Assembly: GCA_016936755.1 (NCBI GenBank)
Contig: JAFGXF010000060.1
Location: 20,449 to 84,448 of the forward strand
Direction: 5' to 3'
Length of the DNA: 64,000 nt
Source: Anaerolineaceae bacterium
GTDB taxonomy: Bacteria > Chloroflexota > Anaerolineae > Anaerolineales > Anaerolineaceae
Positions 56,089 to 62,435 of this stretch are shown here, piece by piece. The notes under the pieces are model-generated. The model was given only the letters and a program-made list of their open reading frames with translations, was not told the DNA's origin and searched no databases. Both the position numbers and the translations under genes were made by a program. Position 1 is the stretch's first letter. Every line of letters begins with the position of its first letter.

Positions 56089-56967
56089 CTACATATACTG
56101 ACGCATAGCGTCCAGCATACGGACAAAGCGCACTGTTGCACCAACATCATGGACCCGAATGATATCAGCCCCGCGCATGATCCCCAAGCCCACAGCTGCA
56201 AGCGTACCCTCCAGGCGTTGATCTGGGGGTAAATCAAGAGTCAATCCGATAAAGGATTTGCGCGAAGGACCCAGGAGGACCGGGTAACCGAGTTCATGAA
56301 TCTCGTTCAGATGAGCGATCAGGGTCATATTTTGCTCGACGGTTTTTCCAAATCCAATTCCCGGATCGAGGATGATCATATCATCCGTGATGCCTGCTGA
56401 GTGTGCAAGTGTCACGCTTTGAAGCAATTCGGTTATCACATCCTTTGCTAGATCATCATATTGAGTACCTTGCGGGTAGTTTGACAGACGCAATGCAAGT
56501 TTGGGATCAGCCGGTTGTGAACGGTTGTGCATTAATATCAAGGGTGCCTTATGTTTTTTTACCACCTCGGTCATACGGGGATCAGCTCTTAATGCCCAGA
56601 TATCATTGATCCAATCGACACCCATCTGTAAACCGGTTTCGGCAACAGATGCTTTATAGGTGTCCAGAGAAAGTGGTATTCCCAAGTTCTCGTTGATAAG
56701 CGCCTGAATTATGGGGATAACCCGCCTTAGCTCTTCTTCTTCACTGATGGGAGGTGCTCCCGGACGGGTGCTTTCACCACCAATATCCAGGATATCTGCA
56801 CCCGCTGTTATAAAATTACGAGCTTGTTCCAATACCTGATCAAGCACATTTTCATGAACGAGTAAGCCGTCACCAGAAAAACTATCCGGGGTGATATTAA
56901 TAATTCCCATGATGTAAGTTCGCTCTCCCCAGGAAAAATCGGCAAAAGTATTTTTCATGTACTGCAA
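56089..56967 (-). CDS. folP: Dihydropteroate synthase
   Basis: IMGIINITPDSFSGDG, DIGGESTRPGAPPISEEEEL, ILDPGIGFGKT. Confidence 0.95.
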   Translation of the reverse strand: MQYMKNTFADFSWGERTYIMGIINITPDSFSGDGLLVHENVLDQVLEQARNFITAGADILDIGGESTRPGAPPISEEEELRRVIPIIQALINENLGIPLSLDTYKASVAETGLQMGVDWINDIWALRADPRMTEVVKKHKAPLILMHNRSQPADPKLALRLSNYPQGTQYDDLAKDVITELLQSVTLAHSAGITDDMIILDPGIGFGKTVEQNMTLIAHLNEIHELGYPVLLGPSRKSFIGLTLDLPPDQRLEGTLAAVGLGIMRGADIIRVHDVGATVRFVRMLDAMRQYM

Positions 56968-57467
56968 CCCTTCTCATGATTAACAAAGATTTCCACACCG
57001 GTCTTGTCGATCGCAGCAGCAAGAGATCTTATTGTCATGCCGGTGATTGGATGGAGCAGGTCCGCGGCAATATCCGACAAGGGCAGCAGTACAAACGCTC
57101 GCTCGGTAAGCCGGGGGTGCGGGATCGTTAAACCCTTCGATGATACTACCAGGTTGTCGTAAAACAGGATATCAAGATCAATCAGCCGTGGTCCAAAGCG
57201 AATGGATGGTTGGCGACCCATTTCAATCTCAATGGATTTCAGATTTTTCAGCACCTTGCGGGGAGTGAGTGTAGTGGCTGCCTCCAGCACACAGTTAAGA
57301 AATAAAGGTTGATCCTGATAACCCCATGGTACGGTTTCATAAATGGGTGACACAATCCTCGGACGAATATCAGGTTCGAGCATCTGAATCGCTTGCGTTA
57401 AATTGCTTTGTCGGTCTCCCAGGTTGGATCCGAGGCCCAGATAAATACGATGCTTCATTCTTTCCAT
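56955..57467 (-). CDS. folK: 2-amino-4-hydroxy-6-hydroxymethyldihydropteridine pyrophosphokinase
   Basis: YLGLGSNLGDRQSNL, RFGPRLIDLDILFYDN, IPHPRLTERAFVLLPL. Confidence 0.95.
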   Translation of the reverse strand: MERMKHRIYLGLGSNLGDRQSNLTQAIQMLEPDIRPRIVSPIYETVPWGYQDQPLFLNCVLEAATTLTPRKVLKNLKSIEIEMGRQPSIRFGPRLIDLDILFYDNLVVSSKGLTIPHPRLTERAFVLLPLSDIAADLLHPITGMTIRSLAAAIDKTGVEIFVNHEKGCST

Positions 57468-58537
57468 ACTTCGAGGATAGTGATGAGATCTGATAGTAAA
57501 CCATATGCAGTGGTTCCAGGGCCAGGATTGCTCTCGAGAATCCCCAATCCTGGAAGCGTGTCTGTTTCAAATTGAATATAGGAACTCGTGCCATTTACTG
57601 AATAAAGAGTTGAATCTGAGTTAACACACTCAGGGGCAACGCGTGCTGATACATTTCGCCCTTTTTTTCGGGCCGAACAAACCAGCTTCCAGCGCTTGCC
57701 TTCTGCTTTGGCAGCAGAGATCATTTCTGGAGTAACGCCTCTAATTCCCTGTCGATCAACCTGCGAGGGTGTTAACGCCACTCCCAATAATACCGTGGAG
57801 AGAGCGGCAACCTTAATGGCGGCGTCCCAACCATCAATGTCTGCTGAAGGATCAGTTTCTGTAATACCAACCGCTTGAGCATATTTTACCGATGCTTCCA
57901 AAGTATCACCTGATTCCATTCGTGATAAAAGGAGGTTGGTACAGGAGTTAAGTATTCCATGAAATCCGATCAACTGGGAAGCCGGGAGACATGATTGAAA
58001 CAAAGAAAAAATAGGTGCACCATCCATGACAGATGACTCAAAACGGAAACAACGCCCTTGATTCCTTGCCAGGTTAGTCAATACTTCATATCCATGTACA
58101 ACTGGGCCTTTATTGGCGGTGATTACATGCATACCTCTCTCAAGCGCATGTCGAAGGTGGTTTATTGCGGGTTGGCCGGTCTTTTGATTCACGGGAGTAT
58201 TCTCCAGTAGAATATCCCCTTGGCAAACGTCGATGAATTCCATGGTGGTATTTACGGTCGGCCCCTTGTTGAGCAATGAATAATCCCCTGATCGCTTTGT
58301 AACCGGGTCGATCTTCAGGGGGTCAATTCCACCCGGATCAATGGCGTAGCCATGTCGATTAGTGGCGATACCGGTGATTTGTATTTTGACCCCGTATTGA
58401 TCAGAGAGCAGCGCGTGTTTATTGTGTAGCAAATTAACAAAAGCTTTGCCCACATTGCCAAAACCAACCATTACCAGACGTATTGTTCTCATTCTTGCCA
58501 TATCCTTTGTAACTGTAGTGATCAAATTGGAGGCCAT
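57455..58537 (-). CDS. Homoserine dehydrogenase
   Basis: LVMVGFGNVGKAFVNLL, HVITANKGPVVHGY, GILNSCTNLLLSRME, DPSADIDGWDAAIKVAALS. Confidence 0.93.
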   Translation of the reverse strand: MASNLITTVTKDMARMRTIRLVMVGFGNVGKAFVNLLHNKHALLSDQYGVKIQITGIATNRHGYAIDPGGIDPLKIDPVTKRSGDYSLLNKGPTVNTTMEFIDVCQGDILLENTPVNQKTGQPAINHLRHALERGMHVITANKGPVVHGYEVLTNLARNQGRCFRFESSVMDGAPIFSLFQSCLPASQLIGFHGILNSCTNLLLSRMESGDTLEASVKYAQAVGITETDPSADIDGWDAAIKVAALSTVLLGVALTPSQVDRQGIRGVTPEMISAAKAEGKRWKLVCSARKKGRNVSARVAPECVNSDSTLYSVNGTSSYIQFETDTLPGLGILESNPGPGTTAYGLLSDLITILEVWKE

Positions 58538-59241
58538 GGTATTGTGCGCCGGGTGCTCGGTGGAATGGGATAAAGACCACCGATCAGCAACGACCTCATT
58601 CTACCTGCCAATGCAGATAATTCAGCGGGACTTAACAAAGAGATTACTTGGTCATAAACACCGATTTGTGTGGTTAGATCAATATTCACCCGTTCGATAT
58701 CAGCCAGTAAATCATGGGGTATTTCTTCACCTGCGTGATCCCAGGCAACTGTTCGAAGTTTCTCAACCACATGAAAGGTGAGTCCATGGTCGATAAGCCA
58801 GACATGCCCATCCGGATCCTCGATAAAGTGGCCGGCTTTTCTGTCTGCGTTATTGAGCATGTAATCAAAAAGCAGGATCTTCCGACGAAGCGCAATATGA
58901 GCATCTGACAAAGTGAAATAATGGGTTTGCGGGTCATGTGTGATGAAAGCCTGGAGAGAACCAGGCCCCATTGGGCCTTTTTTTCGATGAACGGTTGGCG
59001 GAACCAGACCCCATTTCAGTGCTTCACTGAACACATACGTTGCCACCTCCCGTTTGAACAGCGTTCTGGGAGGAAAATCCCATAACGGTCTTTCACCTGC
59101 ACTCGGTTTATAAACTGCCCGCAGCTCATGAGAAGTGGTTCTGACATTTACCAGAAAGGTACCATTGGAGCCTTGCAAAAACTGACCCGCCAAGTCGATT
59201 TCCCCACATTGTAAATCCCTAAGAGTCGCCAGCTTGTCCAT
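58522..59241 (-). CDS. SCO1664-like protein (PI3/PI4-kinase-like fold)
   Basis: NVRTTSHELRAVYKPSAGERPLWDFPPRTLFKREVATYVFSEALKWGLVPPT; LLFDYMLNNADRKAGHFIED. Confidence 0.85.
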   Translation of the reverse strand: MDKLATLRDLQCGEIDLAGQFLQGSNGTFLVNVRTTSHELRAVYKPSAGERPLWDFPPRTLFKREVATYVFSEALKWGLVPPTVHRKKGPMGPGSLQAFITHDPQTHYFTLSDAHIALRRKILLFDYMLNNADRKAGHFIEDPDGHVWLIDHGLTFHVVEKLRTVAWDHAGEEIPHDLLADIERVNIDLTTQIGVYDQVISLLSPAELSALAGRMRSLLIGGLYPIPPSTRRTIPWPPI

Positions 59242-59782
59242 CTTGTATTATTTGGGATTTTTTATGCCCATTTTTCTTTGGGCAGACATGCCCTTTGGGA
59301 CCAATTACCTCGCCACATAATGGGCAAATTGGGCGACCTCGATCAGCCAATTCAACGCACCAATGCGCCAGACGACGAAGTTGATTGCGATTGCACCACA
59401 AGCGAACGACCCCCCGCTCTTCAGTGTCCTCTGCTTCGACAGACACCTCACGTAAGACCATAATGATCATATCTTCTGACAGGTCATAGCCCAGGCCGAA
59501 ATCACCTATTCGGAACAAAGGCTCCACGGGGGATTTTAATTGCATATCTTCTTCAGTATATGTTGAAGAGGCATCTTCAAGATCCGGATGGTCCTTTTTG
59601 ATATCTGCCAGGAATTGTTCAATGGCTACTGCCAGGGCTTGCAATTGTATTTTTTCCACAAGCAGTGAGACAAGCTCTCCCCCCTTCGTTGCTTGAATGT
59701 AAAAGACACGCTGACCGGGTCTGCCGATGGCGTTGGTTATGATATCATCTACTGGGTGAAATTCTATTTCTATACCTGGCAT
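59219..59782 (-). CDS. DUF3090 family protein
   Basis: GRPGQRVFYIQATKGGELVSLLVEKIQLQALA; C-terminal zinc-ribbon-like CPLCGEVIGPKGHVCPKKNGH. Confidence 0.88.
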   Translation of the reverse strand: MPGIEIEFHPVDDIITNAIGRPGQRVFYIQATKGGELVSLLVEKIQLQALAVAIEQFLADIKKDHPDLEDASSTYTEEDMQLKSPVEPLFRIGDFGLGYDLSEDMIIMVLREVSVEAEDTEERGVVRLWCNRNQLRRLAHWCVELADRGRPICPLCGEVIGPKGHVCPKKNGHKKSQIIQDGQAGDS

Positions 59783-59843
59783 AAAAAATTCCTGACGCGG
59801 GATTCCCACATTATAAGACATTCCAACCGTGGTCTGGTAGAAG

Positions 59844-62435
59844 ATGAACACAATTAATAACCCCCTCTTATCTCGAAGTGCGATAAAAACAAGTCGTGAA
59901 TTGTGGGTTGTTCGGTGGTTAATATTGCGGAAAAGGCTGGCAGGGCGCAGGAAACGGGAAAAACGGGCGGGAACACGATTCGGTTTTTCAGGTTTTGGTT
60001 TGGGCTTGATGACATTGGGTATCAGCGTTTTGCTTATATGGGGTGGTTTCTATGTCTACCAGATCCTGTCAGGGCTCCCATCCATTGGGCGATTGGAGCG
60101 CCTGGCAGGCCCGGGTGGCAGTATCTATTCTCCCACTCATTATTATGATCAGACGGGTCAGTCACTGATTGATGATGAAAGGGTGGCGTTTTCCCACTTG
60201 GAACACATCGCGTTTTCATCAGATCAAGCACAACCCGAAGGAGTGATGCTTGCGACATATGCACTGGCTGTCCTGACAAGCATGGATGGAACACATATAT
60301 TCGATCCCAACCTGGCACCGCCGATCTCGATCGAGGAGCGCCTGGTTTTAAATTTACTGCTCTCTACCGAACCGCCTTCGACAGGTAGAACGATTCGCAC
60401 GAAGCTGTTGTCTGTTATGGCAGTTACCAGGTATGGACGGTGGACTTTGCTGGATTGGTTCCTGAACACAACATCATATGGACATGGTACCTGGGGGGCT
60501 GAACAGGCAGCTCGGCTTTATTTTAATAAAGCGGTCACGCAGTTGGATTCGGGTGAATCTCTGGTGTTGGCTGTCATTGCGTTGAATCCCGAGGCGAATC
60601 CAATTGATACCCCCGAGTTATTTAATATCACATTGCGATCGGTTGGTATACACTTGCTTTCCACCGGATTGGTGAATGCCGAAGTGCTTAACCTTGCTGA
60701 CAATGCTGTCAGTGAAATTTCCACCCCAATAAATGAAAATGACAAACACGTATCTGCATTTGTTGCTACTGTTAATAAACAATTGGACGATGCATTGGTA
60801 AGAGACCTCCCTCTTCAGGGAGGGTTGACAGTAATAACGACATTGGATATGAACATCCAGCGGCAACTTGAATGCGCCGTGGGATCGTTACTTGGTGTGG
60901 AGAGCATCAGAGCCGATTGTTTTCTCATACAGGAAGAAATAAAGAAGCCACAATTGCATACCTCAATTCCTGATGGATTGATGGTCAGTTTCACTTTGCT
61001 GGATCCTGTCACCGGGCAAATCAAGGCCATGCTCGGGGATTTCTCGCCCACCTCTGGGCAACAGGGTTTGCTGAAACCGCATCCAAGCGGATCGTTGACA
61101 ACCCCCTTTATCTATTTACTTGGCATGTTACATGGCATGAGCCCCGCCAGCCTGGTATGGGATACGCCTACTGGATTTATGGATTCGCAATTGGATCAGT
61201 ATGTTGCTCAGTATGAGTACCAGGGACCGATGAGTGTGCGAACTGCGTTGACAGATGACCACCTGGTGCCTGCCGCCAAATTGCTGGATGGGTATGGCCG
61301 GGAGGGCGCACTGGCTTTGATGAGCAGTTTTGGGCTGCAATTTTATGCCAGTGAGGGTATGCCATTTTCCACTGCTGTAACAGACGCCATCTCGATTGCT
61401 CAAGCATTTGGGGTTCTGGCAAATGATGGTAAGCGACCCGGAAAAACAAGTTTTAACAACATCGTGGTGGAACAACCGATGACCATCCAAAAGATCATCG
61501 ATCATGAGGGCCAGACCCTCTGGGAGTGGAAAGAGTCCCCCCAGCAACCATTGATCAGTTCGGAGTTGGCTTTCCTGATCAACGACATCCTTATCAGTGG
61601 CGGCCTTGAGTCGATGGATTTTAGAGGATCGACCAAAAGTGGTTTAACCCATGAGAATAATGATTTCTGGCGGGTGGTATATACACCCGATTATGTCTTT
61701 GTAGTATGGATGGGCCTTCCAGATACGCAAGAAGGTATTAATTTTTCAAAAACGGGAATTGACCTTGAGCTGATCCTCATACTGGAGAATTACTACCAAC
61801 CTGACCACGAATGGCAGATACCAGATAACATCATACGCTTGGAAGTATGTTACCCATCGGGATTGTTGCCGGGAGAGGCCTGCCCCGAGACGGTAAAGGA
61901 GTATTTCATCTCTGGAAATGAGCCGGTATCAATCGATAACTTGTTCAAGCAGATTCGGATTGACAACGAGACAGGGAGACTTGCCACTGTTTTCACGAAC
62001 CCTGCCCATGTCGTGCAACGGGTTTATTACAATCCCCCGCCTGAAGAAGTCTTCTGGGCACACACGTTGGGTTATCTCGCAGCCCCATCTGAATTTTCGG
62101 TTTATCAATCCAGAAATGTAGGTAGAACCATCCAGCTGGAAGAGCCTCAGAACTTCGCCAATGTGCAGGGAACTATAGAAATTAAAGGAACACTTTCAGT
62201 TGTTTATTTTATTTCATATCGATTTGACTTGGGGGTTGGCCTGGCGCCCGATCAGTGGCTGCAGATCGGCAGTTCAAACAAGGACTTGCCTATCGACAAT
62301 ATTTTAGGTTCTCTGGACACAACAAAATTCCAGAATGGGCTTTATACACTTAGGATCCAGGCTGTATACTCGGGAAATATTGTGGATGACGCCTACCTGG
62401 TTATTCTTATAAACAATCCGGAGACGGTTGATTGA
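59844..62435 (+). CDS. Class A penicillin-binding protein-like protein (GT51 plus transpeptidase folds) with degenerate catalytic motifs
   Basis: LLDWFLNTTSYGHGTWGAEQAARLYFNK (GT51 region); LTVITTLDMNIQRQLE; PSGSLTTPFIYLLGML at the SxxK position; TKSG. Confidence 0.83.
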   Translation: MNTINNPLLSRSAIKTSRELWVVRWLILRKRLAGRRKREKRAGTRFGFSGFGLGLMTLGISVLLIWGGFYVYQILSGLPSIGRLERLAGPGGSIYSPTHYYDQTGQSLIDDERVAFSHLEHIAFSSDQAQPEGVMLATYALAVLTSMDGTHIFDPNLAPPISIEERLVLNLLLSTEPPSTGRTIRTKLLSVMAVTRYGRWTLLDWFLNTTSYGHGTWGAEQAARLYFNKAVTQLDSGESLVLAVIALNPEANPIDTPELFNITLRSVGIHLLSTGLVNAEVLNLADNAVSEISTPINENDKHVSAFVATVNKQLDDALVRDLPLQGGLTVITTLDMNIQRQLECAVGSLLGVESIRADCFLIQEEIKKPQLHTSIPDGLMVSFTLLDPVTGQIKAMLGDFSPTSGQQGLLKPHPSGSLTTPFIYLLGMLHGMSPASLVWDTPTGFMDSQLDQYVAQYEYQGPMSVRTALTDDHLVPAAKLLDGYGREGALALMSSFGLQFYASEGMPFSTAVTDAISIAQAFGVLANDGKRPGKTSFNNIVVEQPMTIQKIIDHEGQTLWEWKESPQQPLISSELAFLINDILISGGLESMDFRGSTKSGLTHENNDFWRVVYTPDYVFVVWMGLPDTQEGINFSKTGIDLELILILENYYQPDHEWQIPDNIIRLEVCYPSGLLPGEACPETVKEYFISGNEPVSIDNLFKQIRIDNETGRLATVFTNPAHVVQRVYYNPPPEEVFWAHTLGYLAAPSEFSVYQSRNVGRTIQLEEPQNFANVQGTIEIKGTLSVVYFISYRFDLGVGLAPDQWLQIGSSNKDLPIDNILGSLDTTKFQNGLYTLRIQAVYSGNIVDDAYLVILINNPETVD

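Follow-up and report, generated by a model that had tools for sequence, protein, structure and literature searches.

A probable class A PBP pseudoenzyme, degenerate in both catalytic domains, is maintained across the Anaerolineales

Introduction

Class A penicillin-binding proteins (PBPs) rank among the major drug targets, and it has long been suspected that catalysis is not their only role. The window analysed here, a 64,000-nucleotide stretch of contig JAFGXF010000060.1 (positions 20,449 to 84,448, forward strand) from the Anaerolineaceae bacterium assembly GCA_016936755.1, encodes a class A PBP-like protein that appears to lack the catalytic residues of both its GT51 (GT) and its transpeptidase (TP) domain. 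Is such a protein truly dead in both domains and, if so, what could keep it in the genome? The original prediction, made from the sequence alone, was of a maintained pseudoenzyme, perhaps acting as a scaffold in an unusual cell envelope. We refer below to this protein as the window PBP, and to proteins with the same catalytic positions replaced as dead PBPs.

Results

An intact ORF with the predicted fold of a class A PBP

The ORF had been read as intact at 863 aa, and it is. Its main features are:

59844..62435, + strand: dead class A PBP ORF, 863 aa, intact, from the ATG at 59844 to the stop codon ending at 62435
59985..60071, + strand: transmembrane helix, residues about 48-76 (hydrophobicity; helix 18-75 in the AF2 model)
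60072..60629, + strand: pseudo-GT51 domain, residues 77-262 (PF00912 match at 163-258; fold)
60978..61808, + strand: pseudo-transpeptidase domain, residues 379-655 (phmmer and NCBIfam alignments; fold)
61818..62078, + strand: C-terminal domain 1 (CTD1), residues 659-745; C669 and C680 are invariant, and no other region of the window PBP is better kept
62124..62417, + strand: Ig-like beta domain, residues about 761-858 (strands in the AF2 model)

The TTG at codon 20 (59901) is an alternative start that matches the N-termini of relatives about as well as the ATG does. A sequencing or frame artefact was ruled out by intact homologues of the same kind. Domain models recognise the protein in part: PF00912 (GT51) scores 49.2 bits against a cut-off of 27 and covers residues 163-258, the second half of the domain only, while no transpeptidase domain is found by Pfam at E<=1 (PF00905 unmatched). 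The NCBIfam PBP_1a model reaches 168 bits, far under its cut-off of 508.75, and the NCBIfam class A PBP models, all sub-threshold, span residues 167-717. PF00905 is above its cut-off in the dead orthologues L126 and L130. Pfam also finds in these two proteins a second Ig-like domain (Big_7/BiPBP_C), which is present in most relatives and absent from the window PBP.

An AF2 model computed from the window protein and 69 orthologues has a mean pLDDT of 85.8 and a pTM of 0.77. Its top PDB matches in Foldseek are class A PBPs, the best being S. aureus PBP2 (3dwk; E 9e-27, about 670 columns). Over these columns the model shows the N-terminal membrane anchor and the GT-linker-TP order. By its predicted fold the window PBP is a complete class A PBP, and it is within this fold that the catalytic residues are missing.

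Both GT51 catalytic glutamates are replaced

Residues were placed by aligning the window PBP with the intact paralogue from the same genome (L047) and about 150 relatives. The catalytic positions of the GT51 domain are:

60261..60311, + strand: first catalytic Glu motif (Glu1, EDxxFxxHxG); M147 in TSMDGTHIFDP (alignments)
60321..60347, + strand: GGSTITQQ position, residues 160-168; reads PPISIEERL
60399..60401, + strand: second catalytic Glu (Glu2, RKxxE); T186

A functional GT51 domain has two catalytic Glu residues and the GGSTITQQ motif; the window PBP carries M147, T186 and PPISIEERL in their places. The Glu1 segment had been called degenerate, which the alignments confirm. The GGSTITQQ equivalent had been placed about 10 residues late, at STEPPSTGRTIR, which is the loop after the true equivalent. 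A residue census was then taken over 113 non-identical dead proteins, with some positions scorable in 111 or 112. Glu1 is kept in 4/111 and lost in 107/111, Glu2 is kept in 70/111, and the two are found together in none of the 113. Most residues of GGSTITQQ and the Lys of RKxxE are likewise lost.

The transpeptidase motifs are lost or altered

DD-transpeptidases are defined by the motif set SxxK, SxN and KTG (PMC4810414). At these positions the window PBP reads SLTT, DHL and KSG:

61092..61103, + strand: SxxK position, S417-L-T-T420; Lys in 0/113 dead proteins
61257..61265, + strand: SxN position, D472-H-L474; Asp in 103/113 dead proteins
61635..61643, + strand: KTG position, K598-S-G600; Lys kept in 99/112 dead proteins

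The earlier placement of all three motifs (SxxK as SLTT, a degenerate SxN, KTG as KSG) was right. The SxxK Ser persists in 74 of the 113 dead proteins, and neither the Ser nor the Asn of SxN is found in any (0/113 for each). Alternative catalytic motifs elsewhere in the window PBP were sought and rejected, the only further SxxK sequences lying at residue 12, in the cytosol, and at residue 810, in the Ig-like domain.

The same replacements recur across the Anaerolineales

Most of 60 relatives searched carry a full-length orthologue at 28-35% identity in which these motifs are likewise replaced. Among GTDB representative genomes, a scan returned 392 relatives, and the best 80 were kept for a motif check; all 80 are from Chloroflexota, and their labels are nearly always Anaerolineae, Anaerolineales or plain Chloroflexi. 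The same replacements occur in 80/80, including the proteins of Longilinea arvoryzae, Anaerolinea thermolimosa, Leptolinea tardivitalis and Ornatilinea apprima. All catalytic motif residues are kept in 18/18 active proteins of a type we call D and in 31/31 other active (B/C) class A PBPs. Replacement at identical positions in 113 relatives puts the pattern far beyond chance. Motif-intact orthologues occur in sister families, which makes the loss an old one and not a local event. The prediction of a class A PBP dead in both domains thus appears, from the 113-sequence census, to extend to a whole lineage of the Anaerolineales, with neither a valid SxxK and Glu elsewhere in the protein nor a recent local pseudogene found.

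Three genomes of the family (G009, G014 and G015) have no dead PBP, so it is not essential everywhere. In L057 (G036:C26) the dead PBP is split into ORFs of 620 and 420 aa around an unresolved stretch, which is probably an assembly gap.

The gene is under purifying selection and conservation has shifted

Pairwise dN/dS (NG86) is 0.07-0.25 among dead pairs versus 0.11-0.20 for active paralogues of comparable genomes; one near-identical pair (L176/L177; dS 0.005, dN/dS 0.34) is uninformative. A local pseudogene is ruled out by these low values and by orthologues with the same losses. The window PBP lies on a long branch (2.0-2.2) and has no close relative from which a dN/dS of its own could be taken. 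Of the 99 columns with at least 97% conservation in the other sequences it retains 79, at an overall identity of about 31%. Dead PBPs thus combine lost motifs with a gene under purifying selection, as is characteristic of a pseudoenzyme, and the shared losses, the low dN/dS and the predicted fold together support the earlier description of a maintained pseudoenzyme.

Mean pairwise identity among the active D-type proteins is higher in the GT core (0.65) and the N-terminal half of the TP domain (0.64) than in CTD1 (0.47) and the Ig-like region (0.41). Within the dead family CTD1 (0.59) and the Ig-like region (0.50) exceed the two TP halves (0.49 and 0.42), and the GT core stands at 0.60. The weight of conservation has shifted away from the catalytic cores and towards the C-terminal domains, the GT core alone staying as high.

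Dead PBPs probably descend from active D-type class A PBPs

Among proteins from other families in the order and class, the relatives that score best are D-type class A PBPs of 1000-1100 aa with all motifs intact. In the dead-bearing genomes that were studied in detail, no active D-type protein was seen beside the dead one. Initial trees mostly favoured one origin for all dead forms. In a revised tree, from which the longest branches and the motif columns had been removed, the dead proteins of Anaerolineales group with active D-type proteins of the same order (SH-aLRT 97), those of family f46 with active f46 proteins (99), and those of f33 with an active protein from a neighbouring family (97). 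This topology favours at least three apparently independent catalytic losses in one orthologous gene slot, and a single dead clade is compatible with the AU test (p-AU 0.254). No synteny was found between dead and active D loci, so their orthology rests on the tree, on length, on a shared Arg mini-domain and on there being no second D-type gene in the genomes checked.

Dead D-type PBPs with different replacements occur in other families of the class (L185 in G204, L198 in G178, L189/L190/L197 in f46, L199/L206/L208 in f33). Some of them still have the ED of the GT motif, as though their decay were less advanced. A fourth type of class A PBP is represented by L242 (8700+) and L243 (9654-), from G204 and G119; it has a Pro/Arg-rich N-terminus and a GCxGC-like Cys motif immediately ahead of the membrane helix.

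An Arg-rich cytosolic mini-domain precedes the membrane helix

59922..59951, + strand: Arg-rich cytosolic mini-domain, residues 27-36 (ILRKRLAGRR), at the N-terminal end of the membrane helix

The position of R31 is Arg in 68/70 dead rows. A loose form of the Arg pattern is present in 80/113 dead proteins, against 5.0 expected from shuffled N-termini, as well as in 8/18 active D-type and 1/31 other class A PBPs. The putative mini-domain is common to dead and active D-type proteins and is not shared by the other class A PBPs. A positive-inside topology signal is a simpler reading of its charge but does not account for the fixed Arg spacing. In Firmicutes, GpsB binds an Arg motif in the cytosolic mini-domains of class A PBPs (PMC6335420). 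The window genome (87% complete) yielded no DivIVA/GpsB-family protein, and GpsB is therefore probably not the docking partner here.

Gene neighbourhood

56089..57467, - strand: folP and folK (Pfam HPPK); neighbourhood shared with f12 dead-PBP loci

The window PBP gene stands by itself: a DUF3090 gene diverges from it, and folK-folP lie close by. Dead PBPs of f12 also lie beside folK-folP, which supports orthology. Read from a GTG start, the DUF3090 ORF overlaps the start of the dead PBP by 8 bp; it is adjoined by a gene for a SCO1664-family PI3K/HipA-like kinase (58522-59851 for the two; TIGR03843, TIGR03847).

At 19 loci a TPR membrane protein of about 580-870 aa is encoded directly upstream of the dead PBP on the same strand, with a gap of mostly 3-21 bp; other dead-PBP loci carry a shorter TPR/zinc-ribbon protein or recN upstream. 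Across 37 genomes of the family the dead PBP and the TPR protein co-occur (Fisher p 0.006, or 0.0004 when two genomes in which the TPR gene runs to a contig edge are left out, both uncorrected for relatedness), and 8/37 have one without the other. Linkage does not hold in the window genome itself, where the TPR orthologue sits on another contig and is followed by a different gene. That orthologue (L182, 7987-9711 of G000:C79) precedes a 170-aa protein resembling an LTD-type domain.

Discussion

We propose that the dead PBP is probably a pseudo-class A PBP acting as a non-catalytic scaffold or adaptor of the envelope. It probably descends from an active D-type class A PBP, a type still present in other families of the order and class. 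In Anaerolineales the GT and DD-transpeptidase sites were lost long ago while purifying selection kept the membrane-anchored architecture. Through the Arg mini-domain the protein may dock to a partner in the cytosol or the membrane. One candidate partner is the TPR membrane protein that is co-operonic with the dead PBP in many relatives. The rigid extracytoplasmic body (pseudo-GT, pseudo-TP, CTD and Ig-like domains) may hold or regulate other wall-synthesis proteins, or the wall polymer, at the docking site. A scaffold role is a plausible fit to the Arg mini-domain, the C-terminal shift in conservation and the TPR neighbour; from these sequence features we infer the docking, the identity of the partner and the scaffold or regulatory role.

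The main rival to a scaffold is a rewired TP pocket, in which a Ser/Thr-Asp-Lys site would act as a sensor or receptor for stem peptides or other fragments of the wall, or would perform other chemistry. Ser or Thr at the SxxK Ser position, Asp at the SxN Ser position and Lys at the KTG position are found jointly in 98/113 dead proteins, the window PBP among them (S417, D472 and K598), and the column of D472 ranks 34th of 259 in the TP domain for conservation. The signatures GSLLTPF, LANDYL and KxGQT are new and appear repeatedly across the dead lineage. The retention of the set indicates that the pocket is not random and, like the Arg mini-domain and the shift in conservation, points to a non-catalytic role. 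Against binding or chemistry, the Asp beside the KTG Lys may be a mere salt bridge replacing the old polar network, dead proteins of f46 and f33 do not retain the set, and the TP domain is less conserved than CTD1. The Lys of SxxK is the general base of PBPs, and it is never kept. A rewired pocket is an unlikely explanation that still deserves real weight. A bolder combination, in which the Anaerolineae slot became non-catalytic at least three times and the TP pocket in Anaerolineales was rebuilt into a novel Ser/Thr-Asp-Lys site for binding or catalysis, seems to us doubtful.

The dead PBP could also be a more specific kind of scaffold, one that allosterically assists or inhibits the single class A PBP still active, by forming heterodimers or by competing for its activators. 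The window genome (2.29 Mb, 87% complete) encodes one intact class A PBP, the paralogue L047, which answers the earlier call to look for one, together with three class B PBPs and two SEDS proteins, an inventory that favours the scaffold reading in general. In 26/26 genomes checked, one or more canonical GT51 proteins are encoded, and each dead-bearing genome among them has one strongly degenerate GT51 match, at the dead locus. Pseudoenzymes often regulate their active cousins (PMC11266112). The genes for the dead PBP and the active paralogue are, on the other hand, unlinked, and we give this version only a slim chance. The same inventory gives no sign of the unusual cell envelope that had been suggested: the standard peptidoglycan synthases are all present in the window genome.

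A decaying relic or pseudogene is very improbable: the window PBP is among the most derived members and a few members of the family have lost the gene, but ORFs are intact in about a hundred genomes at the dN/dS given above, conserved columns are retained and the AF2 model is well folded. Equally hard to credit is a synthase still active through shifted catalytic residues, for which the frequent Glu2 and SxxK Ser would speak, but which would have to work without Glu1 in nearly all dead proteins, without most of GGSTITQQ, the RKxxE Lys, the SxxK Lys and SxN, and in the window PBP without either Glu.

If the scaffold reading is correct, an old, lineage-wide form with neither active site would mean that the non-catalytic part of a class A PBP is worth keeping alone, which is directly testable. 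The apparently independent losses in one slot, alongside active sisters, would offer a natural experiment on the non-synthetic roles of class A PBPs. Counts of annotated 'class A PBP' genes in Chloroflexota overstate the number of working synthases. No published report of the dead family was found in a literature search conducted mostly outside subscription journals.

Comparison with known systems

Class A PBPs such as S. aureus PBP2 (3dwk) and A. baumannii PBP1a (3udf) share with the modelled dead PBP the membrane helix and the GT51-TP order over about 670 columns. The dead PBP differs from these canonical proteins in lacking the GT and TP catalytic signatures and in having extra CTD and Ig-like domains.

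The closest active relatives are the D-type PBPs of Anaerolineae (L048, L051-L055, L059, L184, L186-L188 and L212), which are the best-scoring active relatives and are sister to or nested with the dead proteins in the tree. They have a similar length, the same Arg mini-domain and the same CTD and Big_7 domains, but retain EDxxF, GGSxITQQ, RKxxE, SxxK, SxN and KTG, which the dead family does not. The PBPs bound by GpsB, B. subtilis PBP1 and L. monocytogenes PBPA1, likewise use an Arg-containing helical mini-domain as a docking site (PMC6335420); unlike the dead PBP they are active, and their motif is SRxxR(R/K). The nearest precedent is provided by Streptomyces class A PBPs without SxxK, in which SxN and KTG are mostly conserved and which are treated as able to function (PMC6273383), whereas in the dead PBP both domains appear to be dead.
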